64,000 nt of DNA from a bacterium (GTDB taxonomy: Bacteria; Myxococcota; UBA727; JAUIJE01), in the NCBI GenBank assembly GCA_030431455.1, contig JAUIJE010000003.1:390360-454359 (forward strand). Reading direction: 5' to 3'. A program made the translations under genes and the position numbers. Within the stretch, counting starts at the first letter, position 1; each line of letters begins with the position of its first letter. This document shows positions 31,290 through 44,289 of the stretch, one piece after another. The notes beneath the pieces are model-generated. The model saw only the letters and a list, made by a program, of their open reading frames with translations. It made no database searches and was not told the DNA's origin.

Positions 31290-31748
31290 CTATCCTCGTC
31301 GGCCAAGCCGGCGGCGGACCCGATCGAACAGAATGCGTCGCAGGCTCAGCCGTTCGTAGGGTGCGAGCACCGTCGCGCCCACGCCGCGTTCGAGCGGGGT
31401 CCAGGTGCCGTCTCGTTCGACCCGCGTGACCTGGGCGCGGACCAAGTCGGCGGTGGTCCAGCCATCGATCCACGGGAGGTTGTCGGGTTTGAGCAACACC
31501 GCCCCGCGGGCGTCGAGACCGACCACCCGGTGGATGACAAAATCGCCCGAGGGAAAAAACGCCGCCACCACGTCGCCGAGCCGCAGGTCGGTCACCGGGC
31601 TGAGCTCGACCCGCGACCCGGACGGAATCGCCGGCTCCATCGACTGGCCGGTGGCGCGCATCACCTGGGGCCGGCGCGAGACGGCCTCGAGCACCAGCTC
31701 GAGCGCGGCGCGGTCCTTGACGTCCTCGGGCGCGGCCTCGTCGGTCAC
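31290..31748 (-). CDS. S24/S26-type peptidase-like protein, soluble
   Basis: 152 residues from GTG 31748. The motif GQSMEPAIPSGS gives the catalytic Ser of LexA/signal-peptidase type enzymes, and GDVVAAFF...FVIHRVVG gives the second box with His where signal peptidase I usually has Lys (a Ser-His arrangement known from SipW-type enzymes). There is no membrane helix. Such small S24/S26 proteins are often found with PqqD-like and HPr-kinase-like genes in RiPP clusters, and both are encoded nearby. A leader-peptidase role is inference. Confidence 0.72.
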   Translation of the reverse strand: MTDEAAPEDVKDRAALELVLEAVSRRPQVMRATGQSMEPAIPSGSRVELSPVTDLRLGDVVAAFFPSGDFVIHRVVGLDARGAVLLKPDNLPWIDGWTTADLVRAQVTRVERDGTWTPLERGVGATVLAPYERLSLRRILFDRVRRRLGRRG

Positions 31749-31787: not shown

Positions 31788-32636
31788 GTGGACGCCGTGG
31801 ACCGCCTGCCCAAACGCACCCGCCTCGCCCTGCGCGCGGTGGAAAAGGCCGTCCGCGCCCAAAACAGCCTCTACCGTCCCCTGCACATCGCCCAGCGGGT
31901 GGTGGGCTCGGCGCTGATGACCGCCCTGTCCCCCGACGAAAAAGAAGCGTTGGGTCTCATGCTCTACGACCACGGCCGTCACTACCGGGGGCACGGGCTG
32001 CACGCCTGGGAACAGCTGTGGTTCAAAAGTGACCTGCCCAAGGCCCCCGCCCGCCTGCTGGTGGGCGCAAGCGGCGCGGGCCGCGAAGCGGTGGGGCTCA
32101 TCGAGCTTGGCCATACAGTGACATGTTTTGACGGCAGCCCGTCGATGGTGCGCGAGTGCCAAGCGCGCATGGGCGACAAAGGGCACGCGTTTGTGGCCAG
32201 CTTCACCGGGTTTGCCGACGACATCGCCGCGGGCCGGCGCCCGGCCGGGCTCGACGAGGCCCCCTACGACGCGGCGCTGATCGGCTGGGGCAGCATCGGC
32301 CACGTCTACGACGACGACGTGCTCGTCCGCCTGCTGCGCGCCCTCGACCGGGTCTGCCCGACCGGGCCGCTGCTGCTGTCTTTTCCCGAGCCGCGCCAGG
32401 AGACCTACGACATCTCGCCGGGCAAGGCCGAACGCCTCGGCCGCGGCATCGGCCGCGCGGTGTGCAACGTGCGCGGTCGCGACCCCACCGTGCACCGGTA
32501 CGAATACTTCGCGGTGGCCGAGGGTTTTTTGCGCAGCTTTCCCCGTGAAGCGGTCGATGGCTGGGCCGCGTCCATCGGGCGCAAGGCCGTGCACGCCAAC
32601 TATGGATACCCGACGGTGACCCTGCAGAAACGGTAA
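31788..32636 (+). CDS. SAM-dependent methyltransferase-like protein
   Basis: 282 residues from GTG 31788. LLVGASGAGREAVGLIELGHTVTCFDGSPSMV is a class I methyltransferase motif I with its acidic post-I loop, and DAALIGWGSIGHV occupies motif IV. The N-terminal about 80 residues are helical and may contact substrate. It is divergent from the S24/S26 peptidase (39 bp between starts) and convergent with the HPr-kinase-like gene. It may methylate the product of the adjacent peptide cluster, but this is unproven. Confidence 0.7.
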   Translation: MDAVDRLPKRTRLALRAVEKAVRAQNSLYRPLHIAQRVVGSALMTALSPDEKEALGLMLYDHGRHYRGHGLHAWEQLWFKSDLPKAPARLLVGASGAGREAVGLIELGHTVTCFDGSPSMVRECQARMGDKGHAFVASFTGFADDIAAGRRPAGLDEAPYDAALIGWGSIGHVYDDDVLVRLLRALDRVCPTGPLLLSFPEPRQETYDISPGKAERLGRGIGRAVCNVRGRDPTVHRYEYFAVAEGFLRSFPREAVDGWAASIGRKAVHANYGYPTVTLQKR

Positions 32637-32667: not shown

Positions 32668-33528
32668 TCAGCGGGCGCGGTTCTCGACGTGGGCGAGCAC
32701 TTGTTCGAACACCTCGTCGGCGGGGGTCTCCAGGGCGCGCCAGAGCCGCACGACCTTGACCCCGGCCACCAGGTCCATCACCCGGTCGAGCAAGGCCTGC
32801 TGCAATGTCACGTCATGGGAAAAACACACCACGTGCCGCATCACCTGGGCCACGGCTTCGCGGCCGGGCAAGTCTTCGATCCAGGTCTGGCCGTTGGTGG
32901 ACTGCTCGAGCAGGGCGAGGCCGGCGAAGGTCCCGCCCACCTCGTGGCCAAGTTTGCCCGCGGAGCCGAAAAACGGAGACGGCAACACCCGCGGCGCATC
33001 TGTGGACAGCTGCGCCACCAGGCTGATGTCGTCCGAGATGTACTGGGCCTGGGTGAGCGAGGTCGAGAGCGTGGTCTTGCCCTGCCCCGACACCCCCGCG
33101 AACAACAGCCCGCGCCCGGCCTTCACCGCGCTCGACGCGTGAAACATCAAGCCATCAAACTCGAGCGGCAGAAGCGCGGTGACCATGCCCCGCAGGGGGT
33201 TGATGAGACTGATGAGGGGGGTGTTCTTGAACTCTTCGAGATGGATGCGCGCGTCCAGCGTCTTGCGGTGACATTGCGCCTCGAATACGTCCGCCGCGCG
33301 GATGGTCACCTGCTCGTCGTCGACGCGCACGTCCAGGTCCTGGACCTGGTGCTGCTGCTGTTCGGGGTCTTGGCCGTAGGTCTGCTCGACGATGCGCAGC
33401 CGGGGGCGCGCGTCATCGGGCGGGGCCGGGTGCTGGTATTGCGCGACCCACTTGTCCATCGCCGGGGTCCAGCACGCGGTTTGCTCGAGGACCATGGGCC
33501 CCAGCGACCAGAGCAGGGGCTTGGTCAT
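32668..33528 (-). CDS. HPr-kinase/phosphorylase-like P-loop protein of the RiPP cassette
   Basis: 286 residues from ATG 33528. Walker A GVSGQGKTT spans 145-153, followed by YISDDISLV as a Walker-B-like Asp pair. The N-terminal about 120 residues are beta-rich. This size and layout match HPr-kinase-like proteins found in RiPP clusters (for example beside lasso-peptide genes), which are distinct from true HprK because no PTS genes accompany them. It starts 10 nt after the second radical SAM gene, on the same transcript. Confidence 0.75.
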   Translation of the reverse strand: MTKPLLWSLGPMVLEQTACWTPAMDKWVAQYQHPAPPDDARPRLRIVEQTYGQDPEQQQHQVQDLDVRVDDEQVTIRAADVFEAQCHRKTLDARIHLEEFKNTPLISLINPLRGMVTALLPLEFDGLMFHASSAVKAGRGLLFAGVSGQGKTTLSTSLTQAQYISDDISLVAQLSTDAPRVLPSPFFGSAGKLGHEVGGTFAGLALLEQSTNGQTWIEDLPGREAVAQVMRHVVCFSHDVTLQQALLDRVMDLVAGVKVVRLWRALETPADEVFEQVLAHVENRAR

Positions 33529-33538
33529 GACCGCGCGC

Positions 33539-34738
33539 TCACGGCTCGGTGTCGAGCCGGCCCTTGGGCGCGGGGGGCTCAAACGTGGTGTCGCCCACCA
33601 GGGTCAGGGCCTTGCCCCGGTCCATGGCCGCGTTCTTTTTGACCTTGAGCGCGGCCAGCTCGTGCGCGGCCTCCGCCAGCTGCCGCGAGCTCGACGAACA
33701 CCCGTCGATGTCCCCGTCCTCAATGTCACTGTAGGCCATACACGGCCCGCACGAACTCTTGACCTCGCACGAGCTGCACGTGCTCATCTTGTCGAAGGTC
33801 ATGTCGCGGACCGCGTCGAGCTGGGCGCTGCCGAACCAGATGTCGGCCAGGGGCGCGTCCTTCACGTTGCCCGCGGCGGTGGCGAAAAAGCCGCACCCGA
33901 GCACGCTCCCGTCCGCGGCGATGGCGAGGTGGCTGCGCGCGGCCCCGCACATCACGCCTTCCTTTTGCACGATCGACGCGGTGCCGTCGCACAGCTCGCC
34001 GGGCTGAAAACGGCGGAAAGCCGAATAGAGGTCCGGCCGCGACAACACCTTCTGGCGAATCTCGCGGGGGCTGAGCGCGTACTTCAGCGGGTCGCGGTTG
34101 CCGTCCATCTTCGGCTTCACCGTGGGGTCGAACGACCAATCCGCGCCCACCTCCTCGGCCAGCGTGATCAGCCCATCGATGTGGTCGACGTTGAACGTCA
34201 TCAGGTTGGCCTTGAGCGCGGTCCTGACCCCGCGTTCGCGCAACAGGCGCAGGGCGCGCACGGTGCGGGCGTGGCTGCCGGGAATCCGGGTAAACCCGTC
34301 GTGGGTCTCGGCCAGGTGGCTGTAGAGGGTGACCTCGACCTTGCTCACCTGGAGCGCGGCCAACCGGTCGGCCTTCTTCTCGTCGATGTGCGTCCCGGTG
34401 GTGAACAGCTCCACCGAAAACCGGCGCTGCCGGGCCTCGGCGATGAGCTCGAGCATGTCCCGGCGCAGGAAGATCTCGCCCCCCGAGAAGGTCAGCTGAA
34501 TCACGCCCAGGGCCGCGAGCTCGTCGAGGATGCGCCGGTAGTCGTCGAGGCTGAGGCTGTGCTCTTTCGGGTGGCTCTGCTCAGATTCGTAACAGTGGTC
34601 GCACTTCAGGTGGCAGCGGTTCTCGACGTACAAGAGCGCGGCGTGGGGCCGGACCTGGGCCCACTTCTGCGCGCGCGCGGCCTGCTTTTTTTTGGCCGTG
34701 CCCGCGAGCTGGTCAAAACCGATGAGGGCCGAGCTCAT
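33539..34738 (-). CDS. radical SAM/SPASM peptide-modifying enzyme, second copy
   Basis: 399 residues. The radical SAM cluster motif CxxxCxxC is at Cys42, Cys46, Cys49, followed by FSGGE for SAM binding. The C-terminal SPASM region has eight or more Cys (GVMCGAARSHLAIAADG..GCGFF, CSSCEVKSSCGPC, DGCSSS) for auxiliary Fe-S clusters. These enzymes (PqqE, sactipeptide and related maturases) modify ribosomal peptides. It overlaps the first copy by 4 nt (ATGA) and is clearly its paralogue. Confidence 0.9.
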   Translation of the reverse strand: MSSALIGFDQLAGTAKKKQAARAQKWAQVRPHAALLYVENRCHLKCDHCYESEQSHPKEHSLSLDDYRRILDELAALGVIQLTFSGGEIFLRRDMLELIAEARQRRFSVELFTTGTHIDEKKADRLAALQVSKVEVTLYSHLAETHDGFTRIPGSHARTVRALRLLRERGVRTALKANLMTFNVDHIDGLITLAEEVGADWSFDPTVKPKMDGNRDPLKYALSPREIRQKVLSRPDLYSAFRRFQPGELCDGTASIVQKEGVMCGAARSHLAIAADGSVLGCGFFATAAGNVKDAPLADIWFGSAQLDAVRDMTFDKMSTCSSCEVKSSCGPCMAYSDIEDGDIDGCSSSSRQLAEAAHELAALKVKKNAAMDRGKALTLVGDTTFEPPAPKGRLDTEP

Positions 34739-35943
34739 CCCACCTCCGTGAACAGCCGGCCTTCCGAAAGCTCGGCCAGGTCCACGTCGATGTCGCCCAC
34801 CAACGGAAGGGGCGCGCCCTTTTGGAACTTCTTCTGCACGCGCAAGAGCTCATCCGCGACGAGCTTTTTGCTTGTCGCGTCCTGTCGTGAATAGCTGTTG
34901 CAGGCCTTCTCGTCGTCGTGCTCGATGAGGCCGTAGGCCATACACGGGCTGCAGCCTTGGCGCACGTCGCACGATGAGCAGCTGCTCATCTCACCGAACG
35001 TGGTCTTGCGCACCCGATCGAACAGCGGGGACCGGGTCCAGATGTCCTCGATGGGGTGTTCGAGCGCCGAGCCCCCGGCCACCGGGAACATCGCACACGG
35101 CGCGACCTGCCCGTCGGCCCACACCGTGACCAGCCCGCGCGCCGCCGCGCAGAGGGTGCCCTTGTCGCCACGGGGATTTTCCCCGTGGCAGAGGTTGTCC
35201 GCTTCGGTCATCGACGTGGCCTTGGCGAACTCGGGCCGCTTGTACACTTTGTCTTTCAGCTCCGCGGGCGGGACGGCGAACTGCAATGGCTTTGTGTCGC
35301 CGTTCATGCGCGGCTTCACCGTGGGGTCGAGCGCGTAATCGGCGCCACAGTCCTTGGCCAGCGCGACCAGCTCGTCGAGGTGATCAACGTTGAACGTCAT
35401 CACGTTGGCCTTGAGCACGGTGTGCACGCCCCGCTCCTTGAGCAGCCGGAGGGCGCGTACGGATTTGGCCCAGGAGCCCTTGGTCCCGGTGAACTTGTCG
35501 TGCACCGCGGGGTCGTGGCTGTACAGCGAGATGTGCACCTCGCTCACTTGGAGCGCGGCGATGCGATCGGCCTTTTGCTCATTGATGGGCGTGCCGCTCG
35601 TATAGATGCGCACCGCGAACCGTTTTTGGCGGGCCTGCGCGACGATGTCGAGGAAGTCCTTGCGCAAGAAGGGCTCGCCCCCCGAAAAGGTGCAGACCAG
35701 CACGCCCAGGCGGGCGAGCTGGTCCAGAATGTCACTGTACTGTTCGAGCGAGAGGCCTTCGACGTGCGGGTGGGTGTCCTCGGCCTCGTAGCAGTGTTCG
35801 CACTTGAGGTGGCAACGGTTCTCGACATACACGTGGGCGAACATCGGCCGGACGTTCGCCCACGTCTTCGCGTAGGTGTGATCGAGCAGCTGAGAACGCG
35901 AGTCCTGGTAACTCTGCGACCGCTTTTCGATCTGAACCAACAC
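34735..35943 (-). CDS. radical SAM/SPASM peptide-modifying enzyme, first copy
   Basis: 402 residues from GTG 35943, starting 2 nt after the precursor-peptide stop. Cys44, Cys48 and Cys51 form the radical SAM motif (CHLKCEHC) and FSGGEPF follows. The SPASM part carries GTLCAAARGLVTVWADG..APCAMFP, CSSCDVRQGCSPC and EKACNSYS. The adjacency to a Cys-containing small peptide with a leader-like N-terminus is the main evidence that the peptide is its substrate. Likely reactions include thioether or C-C crosslinking; the type cannot be told from sequence. Confidence 0.9.
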   Translation of the reverse strand: MLVQIEKRSQSYQDSRSQLLDHTYAKTWANVRPMFAHVYVENRCHLKCEHCYEAEDTHPHVEGLSLEQYSDILDQLARLGVLVCTFSGGEPFLRKDFLDIVAQARQKRFAVRIYTSGTPINEQKADRIAALQVSEVHISLYSHDPAVHDKFTGTKGSWAKSVRALRLLKERGVHTVLKANVMTFNVDHLDELVALAKDCGADYALDPTVKPRMNGDTKPLQFAVPPAELKDKVYKRPEFAKATSMTEADNLCHGENPRGDKGTLCAAARGLVTVWADGQVAPCAMFPVAGGSALEHPIEDIWTRSPLFDRVRKTTFGEMSSCSSCDVRQGCSPCMAYGLIEHDDEKACNSYSRQDATSKKLVADELLRVQKKFQKGAPLPLVGDIDVDLAELSEGRLFTEVG

Positions 35944-35945
35944 GC

Positions 35946-36125
35946 TCAGCTACCGTTGCACCCGGCGGCGCACATCGAGCTATCTTGCTTGGTGCAGGTT
36001 CCCGGGGGAGCCATAATGCCGTTGGCTCCGGTGCAGCTGAGGGCGAAGCGCTCGAAGGCGCTCCCCGACCGCAGCATCGGTTTTTGGTAGCGGCGCTTTT
36101 TCAGCGGGTTGGTTTGCCGTTTCAC
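35946..36125 (-). CDS. candidate RiPP precursor peptide (59 residues)
   Basis: GTG 36125 has AGGAG 6-7 nt upstream (36131-36135), overlapping the stop of the giant surface-protein gene. The peptide has a very basic N-terminus, then Tyr13-x-x-Pro16-x-Leu18-x-x-Gly21, close to the YxxPxLxxxG leader element bound by PqqD-like domains in lasso and other RiPP systems. The presumed core (about 30-59) has four Cys at 31, 44, 52 and 56 plus Ser/Thr/Gly residues. The gene stops 2 nt before the first radical SAM gene. I infer it is the substrate of both radical SAM enzymes. Confidence 0.75.
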   Translation of the reverse strand: MKRQTNPLKKRRYQKPMLRSGSAFERFALSCTGANGIMAPPGTCTKQDSSMCAAGCNGS

Positions 36126-36133
36126 AGTCTCTC

Positions 36134-39100
36134 CTAATATCGCACGAACAGGCTGCCGTCACCCTGGCCGGCGCCGTTGTCGGCCCGCTCGGTGGCCCAG
36201 CAGAGCTCATCGAGGCCGTCGTTGTCGAGGTCCCCGCAGGCCGAGGCGAACCCGGCGTAGAACCCGTCGAAGGTGGACGGATAAATCGCGTCCGGCTCCG
36301 TGCGGGCCCCACCGGTCAGGCCGCTGCCCTCCGCGTAGTCGTACCCGAGCCAGACCGTGACCTTGGCCGGCTCTGCCGCCTGGGCGAAGTAGAGCACCAT
36401 CACGTCGTCGTAGCCGTCGCCGTTGGTGTCCTGGACCGCCACGTTGCTGTTGACCTGGAAGGCCAGCGGCTGGGTGAAGCTCAGGTTGTAGTCTGCGGTC
36501 GCCGACAGTGCGCCCCCGTTGGCCTTGTAGATGGCCACGTTGGGCGCCTGGGAGGCGACGAGGTCTTGATCGCCATCGCCGTCCACGTCGCCGGCGGCGA
36601 GGTCGCGCCCGCAGCCCGAAGCAGTGCAGGCGATGACATCAGTCGCCGCCAGTAAGGCCAGGGATTCGGTCGCCGGCGGCACCGCCCAGTCGCCGGTGGC
36701 CTTGCCATGGATCACGTAGAAGCCGTCGTGGCCGTCGACCACAAAGTCGTCGTACGCGTCGGCGTTGAGGTTGCCCACGCCGGTGGCGACGCCGAGCAGC
36801 GGGGTCTCGGCCGCGCCGCCCTGCGGGCGGTCGTTGTCGAGCAACGCGTAGCGGCTGCCGTTGGCGGTGCCGATGGCCCCGGTGGTCGGCCGGGTGCCAG
36901 ACCCGAACAGGACCACGTAGTCGGTGGTGTAGGCGTAGAACGCGTCCCAGGCGGTGATGCCGATGTCGTCAAAGCCGTCACCGTCGACGTCGCCGAGGTT
37001 GCGCGGCTGCACGCCCACGATGGACAGCGACTGCAGGTCGATGACCACCGGGGTGGTCTCGACGAGGTCGGGGACGCCGGGCACAGTCTCGACGTTCGTG
37101 CCGTAGAAGATGTGCAGCTCGCCGTAGAACGTGGTCGGGTCCACCGCGGTGACGATGAGGTCGTCGCGGCTGTCCCCGTCGAGGTCGGCCACGGCCACCC
37201 CGAGGTAACCGAGGTTGGCGGTGCCGCCCACGTTGGTCTCGTCGAGGGTCTTGCCCACCGAGAGGCTGCCGAGATCGCCGCCGCCGCCGAAGATGCGCAC
37301 CGAGCCGTGGCAGTAGAACGGGAAGGTGCAGTTGTCGCCTTCGTTCCAGGCCGCGACCGCAATGTCATTGAAGCCATCGCCGTTGAAGTCACCGCCCACC
37401 TGGGGCACGCCGCCGAAGTAGTCGCGCTCGGCCGCGCCCGCGGCCACGTCGTTGTCGACGTTGGCGTAGGTGAACATCGAAGTGACCAGACCGGCTTCGC
37501 TCACGGTGGCGAACGAGGTGTTGCCCACGTCGTCGACGGACAGCACCCCGAAGTACCAGGTGTTGTCGTAGGCGAGGAACTGGGAGGTCACCGAGAACGC
37601 CCCGCCCGGGGTCGGGTTGGCGTCGGGCGCCACCCGGCCGCCGAAGGACGGGTAGGGCTCGCCCGCGGCCAAGGCGGCCACGTCGGCTTCGGTGATCGGA
37701 CTGCGCGACGCGACCACGGTGACGGTCACCGGGCCCCCCGCTGCGCCGTCGTCGCCGGGCGCCGCGGTGGTCGAGACTTCGATTTGGCCGAGCCGGGGGT
37801 TGCCAATCACCGCGGTGGTCAGCGCCGGCACCGCCGGGGCGGTGATGTCGACGGTGGTCTGGACCGCACCCGAGCCGCTGTTGCCGGCCAAGTCGGTGCA
37901 GGTCGCGACCCAGTCCGCGGTGTTTTCGCTGGTGTCGGTCACGGTCACGGTCACGCTGTCGGTGCCCGAGCCGTCGACCGGCCCTTGCGCGGTGGCGAGG
38001 TCGGTGCCGCCCTCTTGCAGGGTGATGGTGCCGTTTTCGCATTGGGTGACGTCGACGGTGACCTGCACCTGCAGACCCGCCAGGCCCTCGTTGAGGTCGC
38101 TGGCGATGTTGAAGGTCTCGTCCACCGGGTTGTTCACCGTGCCTTGGCCATCGGTGATGCTCGCGATGGTCACGGTGGGCGCGCCGAAGTCCACGTTGTA
38201 GTTGAACTCGCCGGTGGTGCCGCCCATCGCGTCGCCATCGGCGAAGGTGATCTCGATGGTGCCGCTGTCCCCGTCGGTGACGGGCAGGTCCACCCAGATG
38301 GTGTCGCCCATCTCGGTGATGGTGGCGGTGGTGGCGAGACCGTCGACCAGGACCGTGATGGTCGTCGGCATCGGCGCGGCGGTCCAGCCGTTGACCGAGA
38401 TTTCGAAGCGAGCGGTGCCGCCCCCGATGTCATCGGCGGCGCCGATTTCGATCATGCCCGCGACTTGGTCCGGCGAGGTCAGGAGCACCGAGTATTCGCC
38501 GGTGTTGACCTGGATGCTGACCGGCTGTGAGGTGCCGACGTTGCCGGAGGTCTCGGTGCCGCGCGCGCGCAGCGAGGTGATCTCCCCGTTCACGTAGGGC
38601 ACGTTGATGCGGATGACCTCGGTGCCGCTGTCCGCGCCCACCGTGGTCGTCCCACGCTGCAGGTTGTTCTGGTCGATGATCGCGATGGTGCGACCGGCGC
38701 TCAGTCCGGCGTAGTCGACGGTGACATCGAGCTGGAAGCCCGACTTGGCCGGGTCGGCGTCGTCCGCGGCCATGAACACCGCGTCCGCGGCGGGCGCGGT
38801 GATGGTCAAGCTCGGGCCCACGCTGTCCACCGTCGGGGTGTACGGCGCGGACGTGCTGGTGTTGCCGGCCACGTCGCTCACGACCGCGGTGAGGTTGTGG
38901 GCGCCGTCGGCGAGGGTGATGTCGGCGAAGACCGCTTGGCCACCCGCCACAGGGGCGGTGCCCAGGCTCGAGGCCCCATCGAACAGCTCGACGGTCTGGG
39001 TGGCGCCCGCGTTGGTGGTGACCACGATGTCGATCTGCAGGCCCGCTTGGGTCACGGGGTCTTTGTCGTCGGCCACGAGCAGCGTCGGTTTGCTCGGCAC

Positions 39101-42100
39101 CGCGATGCTCACGTTGGGGGCGACGGTGTCGACGAGCAACGCCAAGCTGGTGTTGCCGGTGAAGCCGTTGCCCGCGGAATCGGTGCCCTGCACGGAGAGG
39201 GTGTGGTTGCCCTCGGGGAGCGCGACGTTGGTGAAGGTCACGGAGTTGCCCGCGGTGACCCCCGTCGCCACCTGGGTGCCGTCGATGCGCAGGGTGATGG
39301 TGCGGCCGTTGTTGATGTCGTTGAAGGTCACGGTCACGTTGGACACCGCCGCGCCCGGGGGGTCCCCGCTTTCGATCCCGTTGAACACGCCGACCGGGGC
39401 GCCGTCTTCGACCACGGTGATGGCGTTGACGTTGGGGAGCGATGAGTCGACCGAGAAGTTGCGCACCGCGGTGCCGCTGTTGCCGGCCGCGTCGGTGGCG
39501 GAGAAGGTCGCCACCCACGCGCCATCGGTGAGGTTGGCGGTGTTGTTGGTGCAGACGCCGGACGCGAGGACACAGACCCGGCCCACGGTCGCGGGCCCGG
39601 TGTAGGTGATGGTGACCTGCGCGCCGGCGGCCAGCCCCGTCACGGTGGTGTAGGCCAGCTGTTGGTACCCGTTGATGCCCGCGTTGGCGTCGGCGGCGTT
39701 GCCGTAGAGCAGGCCTTGCACGGGTGAGCTCACGTTGAAGCTCGGGGCCACGGTGTCGACCCGGAACTGCGCGTTGGCCGGCCCGGTCTCGGTGGCGCCG
39801 TCGTCGACGTAGGCGCGGATTTGGTACTGGGTCGCGTCGGAGTAGGCCACGCTGATGGTGGTGGTCGCGGCCACGCCCGAGGCCACGGTGCCGAGGTCAT
39901 CGGTGAACACCACGGCGCCGTCGCTCACCCGCACCACCTCGATGCGGGCGGTGTAGGTGCCGACGGTGAAGCTCGCGGTCACGCTCACTTGTGCGTCGAG
40001 TTCGGTGGGGGTCGCGGGTTGCGCGTCTTCGCTCGCCACCCACCAACCGTTGCCGTCGGCGTCCCCGGCCACCGAGACCGAGAGTGACACATCCCCGATG
40101 GTGAAGGTCAGGACCTGGGTCGTGGTGTTCACGCCGTCGGTGGCCTGGACCGTCAGGGTGCAGTTGGGCTGGTCGATGTTGGTCAGCGGCAACGTGAAGT
40201 TGCCCGCGCCATCGAGGGCGAGCATGCCGCTGAGGTTGAAGTTGCCGCCCCCGTCGCAGGCCAAGTCGTAGGACGCGGACGTCGCGCCGGTCGCGTTGCC
40301 GGTGAGGTTGAGGGTGGTGCCGTTGGCCGGGTTGGCGTCGAGGTCATCGCCCGGGCCGTAGAACTGCCCGTCCACCGGCGAGGTCACGCTGAGCAACGGG
40401 GCGGTGCGGTCGACGCTCACGTCGACTTGGTTGTCCCCCAAGGTGCTGGTGCGCACACCGTCGGTCACGCTGGCGGTGAGGGTGAAGTCGCCGTCGGCGA
40501 GGGTGACCTGGATGAAGGCCGTGCCCTGGCTGTTGACGAAGCCGGAGTAGGTCGACGCACCGGTGTCGATGTCGACCTGGAAGCCCTCGCAGAACGCGGC
40601 GTTGTTGGTGTCGACCGCGACCGTGGTCTGGAACCCGGGGGTGATGGGGTCGGTGTCCACCGCGGCTTGGCCGAAGAGCGCGCCGTCGGCCGGCGACGTG
40701 ATGGTCGCTTCGCACGGCAGATCGACCACGATGTGGAAACTGACCGGCACCATCACGGTGTTGATGCCGTCGGTGGCGGTGATGGTCGCGGTGCAGTCGC
40801 CTTGGTCGAGACCGGTGAGGGAGGTGTCGAACGCCCCCGCGGGCAGGGTGCCGCTCTGGTCGCCGCTGTTGCCGTTGCAGGTCACGTCGTAGCTGGCCAT
40901 GGTCGCGCCCATGATCGACCCGGTGAACGCGAGATCGATGAGGTTGAGCGGGTCGGCGTCGAGGTCATCGGTCTCGTCGTAGGTCGCGTCCTCGACCGGG
41001 TAGGTGATCGCCACCACCGGAGGCATGGTGTCCACGGTGACGTTCACGGTGTTGTCACCCACATTGCTGGTGGTGGTCCCGTCGCTGTTCGAGACGGTGG
41101 CGGTCAACGTGCTGTCGCCCTCGGGCACGGTGACGTTCACGGTCATGGTGCCGTTCGACACCGTGGCCGGCCCGTAGGTATTGCCGCCGACCTCGACCGA
41201 GCCGGTCCAGGTTGCGCAGGCGGGGTTGTTGCCGGGATTGATCACCACCGGAATCTGAAGGCCAGGACTGCCTGGGTCCGCGTCGGTGGTCATCGCGCCG
41301 TACACCGTCCCATCGGGGGGCGAGACGATGTCCGCGGCGCACGGCTGCGGAAGATTCACGGTGAAGTGAACCTCGATCATCTCGTCTTGGGAGCCGTCGG
41401 ACACGGTTACGATCAAGGTACATTGTGGTTTGCTGATGTTCTCAACTTGGATGGTGAAGCTGCCGTCGACATTGAGGGTGATGTCGCCGTTGTCCGTGAA
41501 GGGCGCGCCGGTGCCCGAGCAGGTGATCTCATAGGTCGCTTCGGTGGTGTCGACGGTGGTCCCCGCGAACTCGAGGGTGATGCCATTGAGAGCATCCCCG
41601 TCGAGGTCATCGGTCTCGTCAAAGGTCTCGCCTTCGAGAGGGCTGGTGAGGGTCACGCTGGGGGGCAAGGTGTCGACGTCCACGCTGATGTTGGCGATGT
41701 TTTCGTTGCCGTCGTCGTCGTAGACGCGGGAAGTCAGCAACACGTTGTTGCCTTCGGGAAGGGTCACGACCACGTTGCCGGTGCCGTCGGCGCCAATGGT
41801 TCCGCTTTCGGTGATGCCGTCGACGGTCACGTCGAGGGACACACCGGCGCACTCGATGTTGCCGGTGTCGATGGTGACCTCGGTCTGAAAGCCGATGTCG
41901 GGCGATGCGTCGATGCTGTCGGCGGTGAAGTCGTCGCCGTCGAGGGGGCTGGCGAAGGTCGCGGCGCAGGGGAAGTCGGGGTTGACCTGGACGGTCACCG
42001 AGATCGCGACGGTGGCGATGAGGTTGCCTTGGTCGTCGACCAGGTCCGCGCGGACGGTGTTCATGCCCATGTTGTTGCCCACGGTGACTTGGCCGGTGGC

Positions 42101-42718
42101 GTTGCCGCTGCCATTGGTGGTCGCGGTGACGTCCACGTCGCCGGCGTTGACCACCAGATCGTGGTTGTTGGGGTCTTCTCCGCTGCAGGTCACGTCGAAG
42201 TCAATCTGGGCGCCGTCGGTGTTGGGGTCGGCGTCGGTGGTGATCATCGCCCCGGAGGTGGGCTGGTTGAAGGTGCAAGTGGTCGAACCGTCGGGCTCGA
42301 CACCGGTTACGGTGATTTCGGCGCTCGCGCCCAGCGTGTCCGAGACCGTCAGGGTCTGCTCTGTGCCCCCGGACGAAGCCGCGATGTCGAAGTTGTTGAA
42401 CGTGGCCGATCCGTTCGAGACCGTCGCGGTGGCTTCTTCCCCCTCGCTCGAGGTCAGCGTGAGCACGCGGCCATCCGACCCGCTGTAGTCGACCTCAACG
42501 TCGAACTGGATGTTGTTCTCCAGCGGATCGTCATCGTCGCTCGGATTCAACGTGTCACCGTCCACCGGCGCGATGAACGTGATCGTGGCCGTGCCCGCAT
42601 CCGTGCCGCCGTCCGGACCCACGGGCCCCGGGCACCCACACCCCTGCCCCAGCGCGGAGACCACAACCCCCGCGGACAAAATCGCCACCAACCGTTGAAC
42701 CCGGAACGTATTCGTCAT
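36134..42718 (-). CDS. giant surface protein: Ig-like repeats and C-terminal FG-GAP propeller
   Basis: 2194 residues from ATG 42718, with AGGAG 8 nt upstream. A signal peptide ends near GQGCGC (Cys27), probably a lipoprotein. About residues 50-1740 are a dozen or more Ig-like beta domains recurring as SPxDGxxF..DDxDxxPxNG and TVDTxPP motifs. From about 1770 to the end are seven FG-GAP repeats with Ca-binding DxNxDGxxD loops (DFNGDGFNDIAVAAW, DLDGDSRDDLIVTA, DTNGDGYDDVMVLY), which fold into a beta-propeller like an integrin head. Such proteins are adhesins or surface scaffolds. It lies directly before the precursor peptide, 9 nt apart, so it shares the transcript. Confidence 0.9.
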   Translation of the reverse strand: MTNTFRVQRLVAILSAGVVVSALGQGCGCPGPVGPDGGTDAGTATITFIAPVDGDTLNPSDDDDPLENNIQFDVEVDYSGSDGRVLTLTSSEGEEATATVSNGSATFNNFDIAASSGGTEQTLTVSDTLGASAEITVTGVEPDGSTTCTFNQPTSGAMITTDADPNTDGAQIDFDVTCSGEDPNNHDLVVNAGDVDVTATTNGSGNATGQVTVGNNMGMNTVRADLVDDQGNLIATVAISVTVQVNPDFPCAATFASPLDGDDFTADSIDASPDIGFQTEVTIDTGNIECAGVSLDVTVDGITESGTIGADGTGNVVVTLPEGNNVLLTSRVYDDDGNENIANISVDVDTLPPSVTLTSPLEGETFDETDDLDGDALNGITLEFAGTTVDTTEATYEITCSGTGAPFTDNGDITLNVDGSFTIQVENISKPQCTLIVTVSDGSQDEMIEVHFTVNLPQPCAADIVSPPDGTVYGAMTTDADPGSPGLQIPVVINPGNNPACATWTGSVEVGGNTYGPATVSNGTMTVNVTVPEGDSTLTATVSNSDGTTTSNVGDNTVNVTVDTMPPVVAITYPVEDATYDETDDLDADPLNLIDLAFTGSIMGATMASYDVTCNGNSGDQSGTLPAGAFDTSLTGLDQGDCTATITATDGINTVMVPVSFHIVVDLPCEATITSPADGALFGQAAVDTDPITPGFQTTVAVDTNNAAFCEGFQVDIDTGASTYSGFVNSQGTAFIQVTLADGDFTLTASVTDGVRTSTLGDNQVDVSVDRTAPLLSVTSPVDGQFYGPGDDLDANPANGTTLNLTGNATGATSASYDLACDGGGNFNLSGMLALDGAGNFTLPLTNIDQPNCTLTVQATDGVNTTTQVLTFTIGDVSLSVSVAGDADGNGWWVASEDAQPATPTELDAQVSVTASFTVGTYTARIEVVRVSDGAVVFTDDLGTVASGVAATTTISVAYSDATQYQIRAYVDDGATETGPANAQFRVDTVAPSFNVSSPVQGLLYGNAADANAGINGYQQLAYTTVTGLAAGAQVTITYTGPATVGRVCVLASGVCTNNTANLTDGAWVATFSATDAAGNSGTAVRNFSVDSSLPNVNAITVVEDGAPVGVFNGIESGDPPGAAVSNVTVTFNDINNGRTITLRIDGTQVATGVTAGNSVTFTNVALPEGNHTLSVQGTDSAGNGFTGNTSLALLVDTVAPNVSIAVPSKPTLLVADDKDPVTQAGLQIDIVVTTNAGATQTVELFDGASSLGTAPVAGGQAVFADITLADGAHNLTAVVSDVAGNTSTSAPYTPTVDSVGPSLTITAPAADAVFMAADDADPAKSGFQLDVTVDYAGLSAGRTIAIIDQNNLQRGTTTVGADSGTEVIRINVPYVNGEITSLRARGTETSGNVGTSQPVSIQVNTGEYSVLLTSPDQVAGMIEIGAADDIGGGTARFEISVNGWTAAPMPTTITVLVDGLATTATITEMGDTIWVDLPVTDGDSGTIEITFADGDAMGGTTGEFNYNVDFGAPTVTIASITDGQGTVNNPVDETFNIASDLNEGLAGLQVQVTVDVTQCENGTITLQEGGTDLATAQGPVDGSGTDSVTVTVTDTSENTADWVATCTDLAGNSGSGAVQTTVDITAPAVPALTTAVIGNPRLGQIEVSTTAAPGDDGAAGGPVTVTVVASRSPITEADVAALAAGEPYPSFGGRVAPDANPTPGGAFSVTSQFLAYDNTWYFGVLSVDDVGNTSFATVSEAGLVTSMFTYANVDNDVAAGAAERDYFGGVPQVGGDFNGDGFNDIAVAAWNEGDNCTFPFYCHGSVRIFGGGGDLGSLSVGKTLDETNVGGTANLGYLGVAVADLDGDSRDDLIVTAVDPTTFYGELHIFYGTNVETVPGVPDLVETTPVVIDLQSLSIVGVQPRNLGDVDGDGFDDIGITAWDAFYAYTTDYVVLFGSGTRPTTGAIGTANGSRYALLDNDRPQGGAAETPLLGVATGVGNLNADAYDDFVVDGHDGFYVIHGKATGDWAVPPATESLALLAATDVIACTASGCGRDLAAGDVDGDGDQDLVASQAPNVAIYKANGGALSATADYNLSFTQPLAFQVNSNVAVQDTNGDGYDDVMVLYFAQAAEPAKVTVWLGYDYAEGSGLTGGARTEPDAIYPSTFDGFYAGFASACGDLDNDGLDELCWATERADNGAGQGDGSLFVRY

Positions 42719-42791
42719 CTTTGTACTCCTAGCGAGCAATTCTTCGGCACGAAGACGGCGCGACTGTACCCCATGCGCTCATCGGCCTGAT

Positions 42792-42824
42792 TAAAAAATG
42801 GAACACCTGGTGAGTGTGCCAGGT
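42792..42824 (-). terminator. intrinsic terminator-like hairpin behind pqqD-like gene
   Basis: On the minus strand ACCTGG (from 42824) pairs with CCAGGT (to 42805) around an 8-nt loop, followed 6 nt later by six T (42798-42793). It starts within 4 nt of the PqqD-like stop. The delayed T run makes it a weak or partial terminator, so transcription into the giant gene may be reduced rather than stopped. Confidence 0.5.
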
Positions 42825-42827
42825 ACC

Positions 42828-43121
42828 TCACGGTCCGCTTGCCCGGGGCTCATCGTGTACGAACATGAGACCCTTTTTCACCGCCTCCTCCACGAACGAG
42901 ATCGCGTCCGCGCGCAACTCCGTCTCCGACACGTCGAACTCGGCCAGCATGTCCGCCGCGATCTCCGACAACCGGCGGGATCCGTCCGCGCGGTCCCATA
43001 TGTAGGTCGCGGTGTCGTTCAGCGTGTGCAGCGTGGAATCGTGCGGGGTGATGACGATGGCTTCCCCGTCGATGGTCCGCGCCGGCGTTTCCGGGTTCTG
43101 TTCCACATACCGGTCCCACAT
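42828..43121 (-). CDS. PqqD-family peptide chaperone / RiPP recognition protein
   Basis: 97 residues with GGAGAG upstream. The pattern GEAIVITPHDSTLHTLNDTATYIWDRADGSRRLSEIAADML followed by DAISFVEEAVKKGL is the complete PqqD fold. PqqD proteins bind the leader of a precursor peptide and present it to a radical SAM enzyme. It is encoded 5' of the giant surface protein on the same strand as the precursor and both radical SAM genes, making it their likely partner. A hairpin with a T run follows the gene. Confidence 0.9.
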   Translation of the reverse strand: MWDRYVEQNPETPARTIDGEAIVITPHDSTLHTLNDTATYIWDRADGSRRLSEIAADMLAEFDVSETELRADAISFVEEAVKKGLMFVHDEPRASGP

Positions 43122-43179: not shown

Positions 43180-44289
43180 TCAAGGGTGAGCGGCTTTGGT
43201 CGTCCCCAACAACGCTTCGACCTCAGCCCGGAACACCGCGGGCTCCGTATAGCCAATGTGCACGTGCCGCACCACGCCTCGCTCGTCGACCACGTAGGTG
43301 GTCGGCAACGACTCCATGCCCACCTGCTCGCCGAACCCGGAGCGTCTTCCGGCGTCCTGATCGAGCACCGAGGTGAAGCTCGGCGCGAGTTTTTCCCATT
43401 CTTTTCGAGCCTTTAGCAGGTCGCGCGGCTCGCGGTTGACCCCCAAGACCATCAGGCCCCGGTCGCGGTAGGCGTCGTGGAGCGCGCTCAATTCCGGAAT
43501 CTCGCGTTTGCAGGGCGCGCACCAGCTCGCCCACAAATCGACGATCGTCACCTTGGCGCCCAAGGCGCCCGTCTGTACCGCGGGGTCACCATCGAACAGC
43601 GCCGGCAGCGTCACGTCGGGCAGGGCATCGCCCGGGCCCACCGGCCGGCCCGCGCCGGTCACCTGCACCCCGGCGGCGACCACGTAGCCGAGCAGCAACA
43701 CCACAAACACCGGCGCGGTCTTCACCTGGGGCCGCGCCTCGGTGCGGAACAACGACGGCAAGAACAACACCAAGACGACCAAGCTCGGCCCGTAGGTGAT
43801 GGCGCACTTGATCGCGAACCGGGTCATGCTGTAGCTGTGGCCATCAAACAATGCATAGGCAGCGTTGACGGGATGATGCGGCAACCACCACGCGTCGGAG
43901 GCGAACGCCGCCGCCGACACCCCTGCCATCTGCAGCAGGCAGAGCCACACCCCCGCGTGGCCCACCACCGCGAGGGCCCGGGCCACCGAGAGTTTGTGCG
44001 GGGCCCACAGACGGGACGCGAAATAGAGCGCGGCCGCGGCCACCCCCCACACCAAGAGGTCGGCGTTGACCTGGGTCCACAGCTGCCGCCCGATGCGGCG
44101 GGTCACGATGTCGGCGTTTTCTGTGTAGAGCGGCACCTGCCGGTAGACGTACGGCAACCCCCGAAGCACCTGCACAAACAGGTACAAGCCGGCCACGCTG
44201 ACCACCCCGCCGTCGCGGTCGAAGGCCACCCGCCGCAACGTGGGCAGGGGCGCGACCAGCATGGTGGAAAACCGAGCCAAGGCGTTCAT
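43180..44289 (-). CDS. membrane protein with C-terminal TlpA-like thioredoxin domain
   Basis: 369 residues. The N-terminal about 200 residues hold five membrane helices and look like a Yip1-type domain. A further helix precedes a TlpA/DsbE-like thioredoxin domain with active site WCAPC (Cys257, Cys260) and the cis-Pro segment LPTTYVVD. The active site should face the periplasm, where it could reduce disulfides or assist heme or metal delivery. It overlaps tadA by 4 nt and lies 58 nt before the PqqD-like gene. A link to the Cys-containing peptide is possible but unproven. Confidence 0.85.
   Translation of the reverse strand: MNALARFSTMLVAPLPTLRRVAFDRDGGVVSVAGLYLFVQVLRGLPYVYRQVPLYTENADIVTRRIGRQLWTQVNADLLVWGVAAAALYFASRLWAPHKLSVARALAVVGHAGVWLCLLQMAGVSAAAFASDAWWLPHHPVNAAYALFDGHSYSMTRFAIKCAITYGPSLVVLVLFLPSLFRTEARPQVKTAPVFVVLLLGYVVAAGVQVTGAGRPVGPGDALPDVTLPALFDGDPAVQTGALGAKVTIVDLWASWCAPCKREIPELSALHDAYRDRGLMVLGVNREPRDLLKARKEWEKLAPSFTSVLDQDAGRRSGFGEQVGMESLPTTYVVDERGVVRHVHIGYTEPAVFRAEVEALLGTTKAAHP

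Follow-up and report, generated by a model that had tools for sequence, protein, structure and literature searches.

The window, by which we mean the whole stretch of DNA analysed here (64,000 nucleotides of contig JAUIJE010000003.1, assembly GCA_030431455.1), carries what sequence comparison identifies as a conserved gene cassette, in which a PqqD-like gene, the gene of a giant FG-GAP lipoprotein, the gene of a small cysteine-bearing precursor peptide, radical SAM genes and the gene of an HprK-like kinase follow one another (Table 1). The precursor gene, its family, the set of enzymes and the linkage to the giant gene are all well supported by comparison between genomes, and the neighbouring enzymes, judged from their sequences, very probably modify the Cys-containing peptide. 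The chemistry of the bonds, the sites of phosphorylation and cleavage and the role of the giant are what we infer from these patterns.

Table 1. Features of the precursor cluster (positions within the window)
Feature	Position	Strand	Basis or remark
S24/S26 signal-peptidase-I-like protein (archaeal/SipW type), start uncertain	31290..31748	minus	weak archaeal signal peptidase I match, E 9.8e-6
Methyltransferase-like protein, convergent with operon	31788..32636	plus	methyltransferase-peptidase pair also beside G046 cluster
HprK-like peptide kinase (286 aa)	32668..33528	minus	His..GxxGxGKT..Asp-Asp motif; fold match
Radical SAM/SPASM protein 2 (399 aa)	33539..34738	minus	50% identical to protein 1, motifs intact
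Radical SAM/SPASM protein 1 (402 aa)	34735..35943	minus	CxxxCxxC at 44-51, full SPASM Cys set
RiPP precursor (59 aa)	35946..36125	minus	own sequence, paralogues, family members
AGGAG ribosome-binding site	36131..36135	minus	sequence reading
Giant lipoprotein (2,201 aa)	36134..42739	minus	lipobox ALGQGC near N-terminus, Ig-like Big_13 repeats, C-terminal FG-GAP; alternative ATG start 42718
Terminator-like hairpin and T tract between PqqD and giant gene	42802..42827	minus	consensus match only
PqqD-like RRE, discrete (97 aa)	42828..43121	minus	PF05402, E 3.6e-17
Membrane-anchored TlpA/ResA-like thioredoxin (369 aa)	43180..44289	minus	also beside PqqD in G002, G038

The precursor gene

The precursor is encoded on the minus strand (36125-35946) by an ORF of 59 codons that starts at GTG and has the translation VKRQTNPLKKRRYQKPMLRSGSAFERFALSCTGANGIMAPPGTCTKQDSSMCAAGCNGS. 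Residues 1-30 form the leader, with YxxPxL at 13-18 and FER at 24-26, and the predicted core runs from Cys31 to Ser59. A sequence-only reading of the same DNA had proposed this ORF, with its GTG start and 59 residues but no strand, and the minus-strand translation bears it out, including the positions given for the cysteines (31, 44, 52 and 56) and for Tyr13, Pro16, Leu18 and Gly21; the frame also ends, as had been said, 2 nt ahead of the GTG of the first radical SAM gene (35943). The AGGAG and the close succession to the giant gene had likewise been recognized, with distances that need small corrections: the AGGAG stands 5 nt from the GTG rather than 6-7, and the stop of the giant gene lies 8 nt before it rather than 9. 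The AGGAG overlaps the TAG stop of the giant gene, which makes it likely that the two genes are translationally coupled. The GC content at the third codon position of the precursor is 0.80 (vs 0.51/0.59), and with the comparisons below the sequence record marks the ORF as a genuine gene that had been overlooked.

A family of precursors with a conserved leader

The sequence-only reading had suggested that the gap beside homologous radical SAM genes be examined for a conserved leader, a variable core and fixed cysteines, and this is what was found there. Small ORFs near related radical SAM genes provided a seed alignment of 11 sequences, in which Tyr13, Pro16, Leu29 and Cys31 are invariant; the signature conserved in the family is [Y/W]xxPx[ILV]...[FY]ER..L.C. 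The YxxPxL element noted earlier stands, whereas its proposed extension to Gly21 (YxxPxLxxxG) is ruled out by the alignment, in which Gly21 is unconserved and the true continuation is [FY]ER..L.C.

A profile of the family was run against 195 genomes of the phylum, and 35 of them gave a match at the threshold of E 0.01 or better. The composition of this set of relatives suggests that the window's genome belongs to a Myxococcota lineage. Relatives reach 1e-11 to 1e-16, some of these having been seeds, while those found blind range from 1e-11 to 1e-5. Enzyme genes played no part in finding the new matches, and yet in the stretches that were fetched most of the better ones adjoin genes for PqqD, SPASM radical SAM, HprK-like or S24/signal-peptidase-like proteins. 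Across 25 precursor loci, an adjoining radical SAM gene is present at 21, an HprK gene at 21, an S24 gene at 19 and a PqqD gene at 17. Short precursors with a conserved leader, a variable core and adjoining modifying enzymes are the pattern of RRE-dependent RiPPs, and the comparative data agree with the earlier reading of the ORF as a RiPP-type precursor whose leader is basic and whose core is of the Cys/Gly/Ser kind, the PqqD gene being in the same cluster.

Of 28 precursors compared, 27 place the first Cys 18-20 residues from the Tyr or Trp, and 26 contain a second Cys. Family-wide the first Cys alone is nearly invariant, most relatives having two or three, and the sequence between the cysteines is highly variable; the four-Cys core with its C-x3-C[NQ]GS end is special to the window's genome. 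Two exceptions are known, G038 lacking a Cys at the expected position and G079 having a single one. No NCBIfam model matched the family members and no Pfam model did so meaningfully, so that on this evidence the family is uncatalogued and such genes escape annotation in these bacteria.

Within the family a compact subtype, with many members from family f8, has the order PqqD, radical SAM, precursor, kinase, peptidase and typically a core of the form EALMGICKGG...GGGS. The loci L088-L091 and L045, with the core EALM[GS]ICKGG..GGGS beside PqqD, radical SAM and kinase genes, make up a distinct and well conserved group of this subtype.

Weak matches in other families (L095, L096, L097, L100, L103, L104 and L105) were left uncounted, enzymes of these kinds being absent from the stretches read. 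As a separate observation, family f18 has repeated small ORFs (L096 2105-2353; L097 8079-8297; L100 5264-5857 and 7762-7929) whose leaders carry YxxPxI and whose core, TLFTGSGP..GGVI, hardly varies. None of the cassette's enzymes was found near these ORFs, which are possibly another type of RiPP.

Linkage to a giant FG-GAP lipoprotein

In 14 genomes from 11 families a giant gene on the same strand ends 0-33 nt before the precursor gene begins, a count that takes in two giants cut by contig ends and one (G019) in two overlapping frames. The giant genes are mostly 2,200-2,750 codons long and encode Ig-like repeats together with an FG-GAP propeller at the C-terminus; a C-terminal FG-GAP was found in 12 of 12 giants scanned and Big_13 in 11 of 12, and their N-termini, where readable, resemble a lipoprotein signal. 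Directly upstream of most giants is a PqqD gene, and in four genomes (G002, G020, G058 and G051) it was predicted at this position and then located, just as the G019 precursor was located at its predicted place, 8 nt past the giant. About 18 FG-GAP genes occur in the window's genome, and three encode proteins of more than 2,000 aa; with numbers such as these the repeated adjacency is not a matter of chance. The converse, that every FG-GAP giant has a precursor, was rejected, as a genome-wide search found no precursor of the family at this genome's other big FG-GAP genes. The earlier reading had correctly named the giant as a neighbour; what it missed was the conserved linkage itself, which is the most unusual feature of the system, together with the terminal Ser, the HprK-like kinase beside it and the signal-peptidase-like enzyme.

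A literature search found no published pairing of FG-GAP proteins with radical-SAM RiPPs. Giant FG-GAP lipoproteins are a common and unexplained class of surface proteins, and the strict pairing gives them a first testable function. One tentative proposal, which we put forward as an idea more than as an expectation, is that the giant and the peptide, once modified and phosphorylated, are the two parts of a dedicated system at the surface, in which the propeller carries, displays or senses the peptide, much as an integrin-like head would that had a ribosomal ligand of its own; were this so, FG-GAP giants would be a new type of partner protein for RiPPs. The hairpin between the PqqD and giant genes is a possible attenuator that, to judge from its sequence, may lower the transcript level of the giant, precursor and radical SAM genes.

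That the gene is strictly adjacent and coupled to that of the giant in 14 genomes would also fit a peptide that is simply a small protein partner of the lipoprotein and undergoes no radical chemistry, the radical SAM enzymes acting on the giant or elsewhere. We consider this improbable, for the same leader, first Cys and enzymes occur in the compact subtype without any giant, the leader bears a known RRE-binding motif, and the paralogues described below sit away from any giant.

The enzymes of the cluster

Both radical SAM proteins have the features of SPASM maturases of sactipeptides and ranthipeptides, namely an intact CxxxCxxC and the auxiliary-cluster cysteines. Their nearest assigned families are NirJ2, GeoRSP and PqqE, with scores so far under the cut-offs that the reaction is unreadable from homology, and a search of genome contigs with protein 1 gave a single match, from a distant Lachnospiraceae. 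In the radical SAM tree the compact subtype forms one supported clade, while the giant-linked sequences lie on basal branches whose lack of resolution led us to set aside the idea that they are a single clade. The two proteins of the window are sisters, joined next by the single gene of G002 (support 91/71), and by this placement they look like a duplication within the lineage. The apparent duplication coincides with the presence of four cysteines in the core, as against two or three in most relatives, and each enzyme might serve one Cys pair.

The discrete PqqD-like protein is the only one in the genome above the Pfam cut-off, and is of the kind on which RRE-dependent RiPPs rely. The kinase contains the motif FHASS..GVSGQGKTT..SDD, that is, the His, the P-loop GxxGxGK[ST] and the Asp-Asp of its class, with His-Lys-Asp-Asp all present. 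Its sequence gave only weak P-loop/PEPCK matches against the PDB, while its AlphaFold model (mean pLDDT 72, with a poor N-terminus) matches PEPCK and HprK/P structures (E 8.5e-6 and 3.3e-5). The S24/S26 protein, by its sequence a candidate leader peptidase, is encoded outside the operon, from which an opposite-strand gene separates it.

That intervening gene encodes the methyltransferase-like protein, which may add a further modification. The pair it forms with the peptidase gene recurs beside the cluster of G046, and paired methyltransferase-like and signal-peptidase-like genes are seen in two distant genomes (window 31788-32636 (+); L042 11531-12448). In three giant-type loci the gene immediately upstream of PqqD is TlpA-like (window 43180-44289; L109 5350-6465; L038 221-832); it is possible that the thioredoxin keeps the cysteines reduced or acts on disulfides of the giant.

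A PqqD with SPASM radical SAM enzymes is also the layout of the PQQ and mycofactocin pathways, and the best NCBIfam relatives include PqqE, the mycofactocin maturase and GeoRSP, so that the peptide might be read as the scaffold of a small redox cofactor, like PqqA or MftA, consumed by the radical SAM enzymes and not secreted. The evidence leaves such a scaffold only an outside chance: the core between the cysteines varies greatly among relatives and has no invariant pair of residues from which a cofactor could be formed, the set extends to a kinase and to an enzyme resembling a signal peptidase, and the neighbouring gene encodes a secreted lipoprotein.

Terminal serine, and proposed cleavage site and pathway

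A C-terminal Ser is found in 19 of 28 precursors, compared with 5.7% of the other proteins at the same loci (P ~1e-17); seven of 16 giant-type precursors lack it, two of these ending in Thr. The residue before the first Cys is A, S, T or G in 14 of 16 sequences made up of the giant-subtype precursors and the window genome's own paralogues (P 1e-5). This cannot serve as a general rule for the leader-core boundary, as it applies to only 3 of 12 in the compact subtype and so holds for the giant subtype alone. Both tests were framed after the patterns had been seen, and related rows are not independent. The sequence at the predicted cut is ALS|CTG in the window's precursor and ALA|CTG in the paralogues, and a cut before Cys31 would put the Tyr at -18.

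PadeK and ThcoK, which require His-Lys-Asp-Asp, place their phosphate on the precursor's C-terminal Ser (PMC9266682), and the commonness of the terminal Ser is what would be expected if the HprK-like kinase acts as they do. In the pathway that we propose, the discrete PqqD would grip the YxxPxL leader; the two SPASM radical SAM enzymes would modify the Cys core, most likely by thioether or other Cys-started radical cross-links; the kinase would phosphorylate Ser59, by analogy with PadeK and ThcoK on lasso precursors; the signal-peptidase-I-like protease would remove the leader just before Cys31, by analogy with LppS; and the product would act at the cell surface with the giant Ig-like/FG-GAP lipoprotein. 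The middle steps may also follow another order. As a whole we judge this model probable. It would join on one small precursor three chemistries that are usually apart, radical-SAM modification, probable C-terminal phosphorylation and leader removal of the signal-peptidase type.

Relation to known systems

The system extends the PqqD/HprK group of RiPPs, comprising the lasso peptides and LPP, with a new form. The RRE-binding motif of this group is [Y/W]xxPx[L/V/I/A/F/Y] (PMC10368454, PMC13381572). As described in PMC13381572, the LPP of Bacillota resemble the window in having a discrete PqqD-type RRE, an HprK-like kinase and an archaeal/SipW-type signal-peptidase-like leader peptidase, LppS, which removes the leader after a Thr. 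The cluster has these three components together, the peptidase gene lying outside its operon. The LPP leader YxxPxV...FET is near the YxxPx[ILV]...FER of the present family, but on alignment the full form YxxPxVLxHQxIxFETxxS is shared only as far as YxxPxL and the FE dipeptide, HQ and FET being absent, and a scan of the cluster proteins showed neither the NTP transferase nor the MsbA-type transporter of the LPP core set. PMC13381572 contains the word 'radical' 0 times and mentions no radical-SAM enzyme, and its passages on the pathway that were consulted name no giant lipoprotein, whereas the window has both; the kinase it describes, LppK, acts on core Ser3, whereas the predicted target here is the terminal Ser59. 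In predicted length (Tyr at -18) the leader comes near both the LPP motif and the lasso leaders, which have the Tyr at -17 (PMC10368454).

Paeninodin-type and Bradymonadales lasso systems (PadeK, ThcoK, BsfK; PMC9266682, PMC10368454) share with the window the [Y/W]xxPx[L/I/V] leader, a PqqD-type B1 and a His-Lys-Asp-Asp kinase; the paeninodin group has in addition a C-terminal Ser as kinase target, which is the predicted target in the window's precursor, whereas in BsfA the target is core Ser3 and not the C-terminus. The Bradymonas bsf lasso cluster is 'bordered at one end by an FG-GAP repeat protein' that was 'presumably not involved' (PMC10368454). This border may be the same association seen from the other side, and FG-GAP genes dismissed as cluster borders may be members of the pathway. 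The shared YxxPxL, PqqD and HprK-like kinase, found with BsfA/BsfK (PMC10368454) and in Paenibacillus, could suggest that the window's peptide is itself a lasso precursor, which we hold to be very unlikely: neither a lasso cyclase nor a B2 protease is among the cluster proteins scanned, the Cys-based core CTGANGIMAPPG has no acceptor Asp/Glu at positions 7-9, and two SPASM radical SAM enzymes are present instead.

Beyond this group, the two-enzyme sactipeptides thuricin CD and ruminococcin C, as far as the available parts of the sources describe them, likewise combine two radical-SAM enzymes with a Cys-bearing core; the window differs from them in its stand-alone RRE, kinase and signal-peptidase-like enzyme, its thioethers are only predicted, and no sactisynthase model passes its cut-off. 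The SynChlorMet and GeoRSP cassettes of NCBIfam also place PqqD-like beside radical-SAM/SPASM genes, and ScmC is weakly related to the kinase (E 9e-6), but all scores are far under the curated cut-offs and no NCBIfam model is related to the precursor.

Paralogues in the same genome

Two further copies of the precursor gene turned up when the window's own genome was searched; they lie on contig C18, at 731471-731629 and 731679-731834, some 305 kb off (E 6.7e-5 and 1.1e-4). They are in tandem, with 1 nt from the stop of the first to the start of the second, and their sequences end in KRPYRRPAIASSETYERMALACTGSFNEMFMGCLLPKNSMGTLMCAIACQGS and KKPYRRPTIASSETYERLALACTGSFNDQFMGCLLSKEGMFLMCNAPCNGS. Both keep all four cysteines in alignment, the motif [FY]ER..AL.CTG and the C[NQ]GS end. 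No modifying enzymes were found near them within the fetched flanks, and since the genome has one PqqD above the cut-off and only one closely related radical SAM pair, the paralogues, if matured, would need the machinery of the window's cluster in trans. The dN/dS between the two is ~0.42 (Nei-Gojobori), a value that is only indicative for such short sequences. That the frame stands open between its neighbours merely by chance, a thought encouraged by the shortness of the frame, its GTG start and the other open frames that overlap it, is next to inconceivable in view of these purifying-like substitutions, the codon-position GC, the paralogues and the relatives at the same place, and is contradicted by the conserved family. 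The tandem pair (L028 13969-14485, equivalent to G000:C18:731468-731984, minus strand) is flanked by the gene of a peptide deformylase and by a gene of no related kind.
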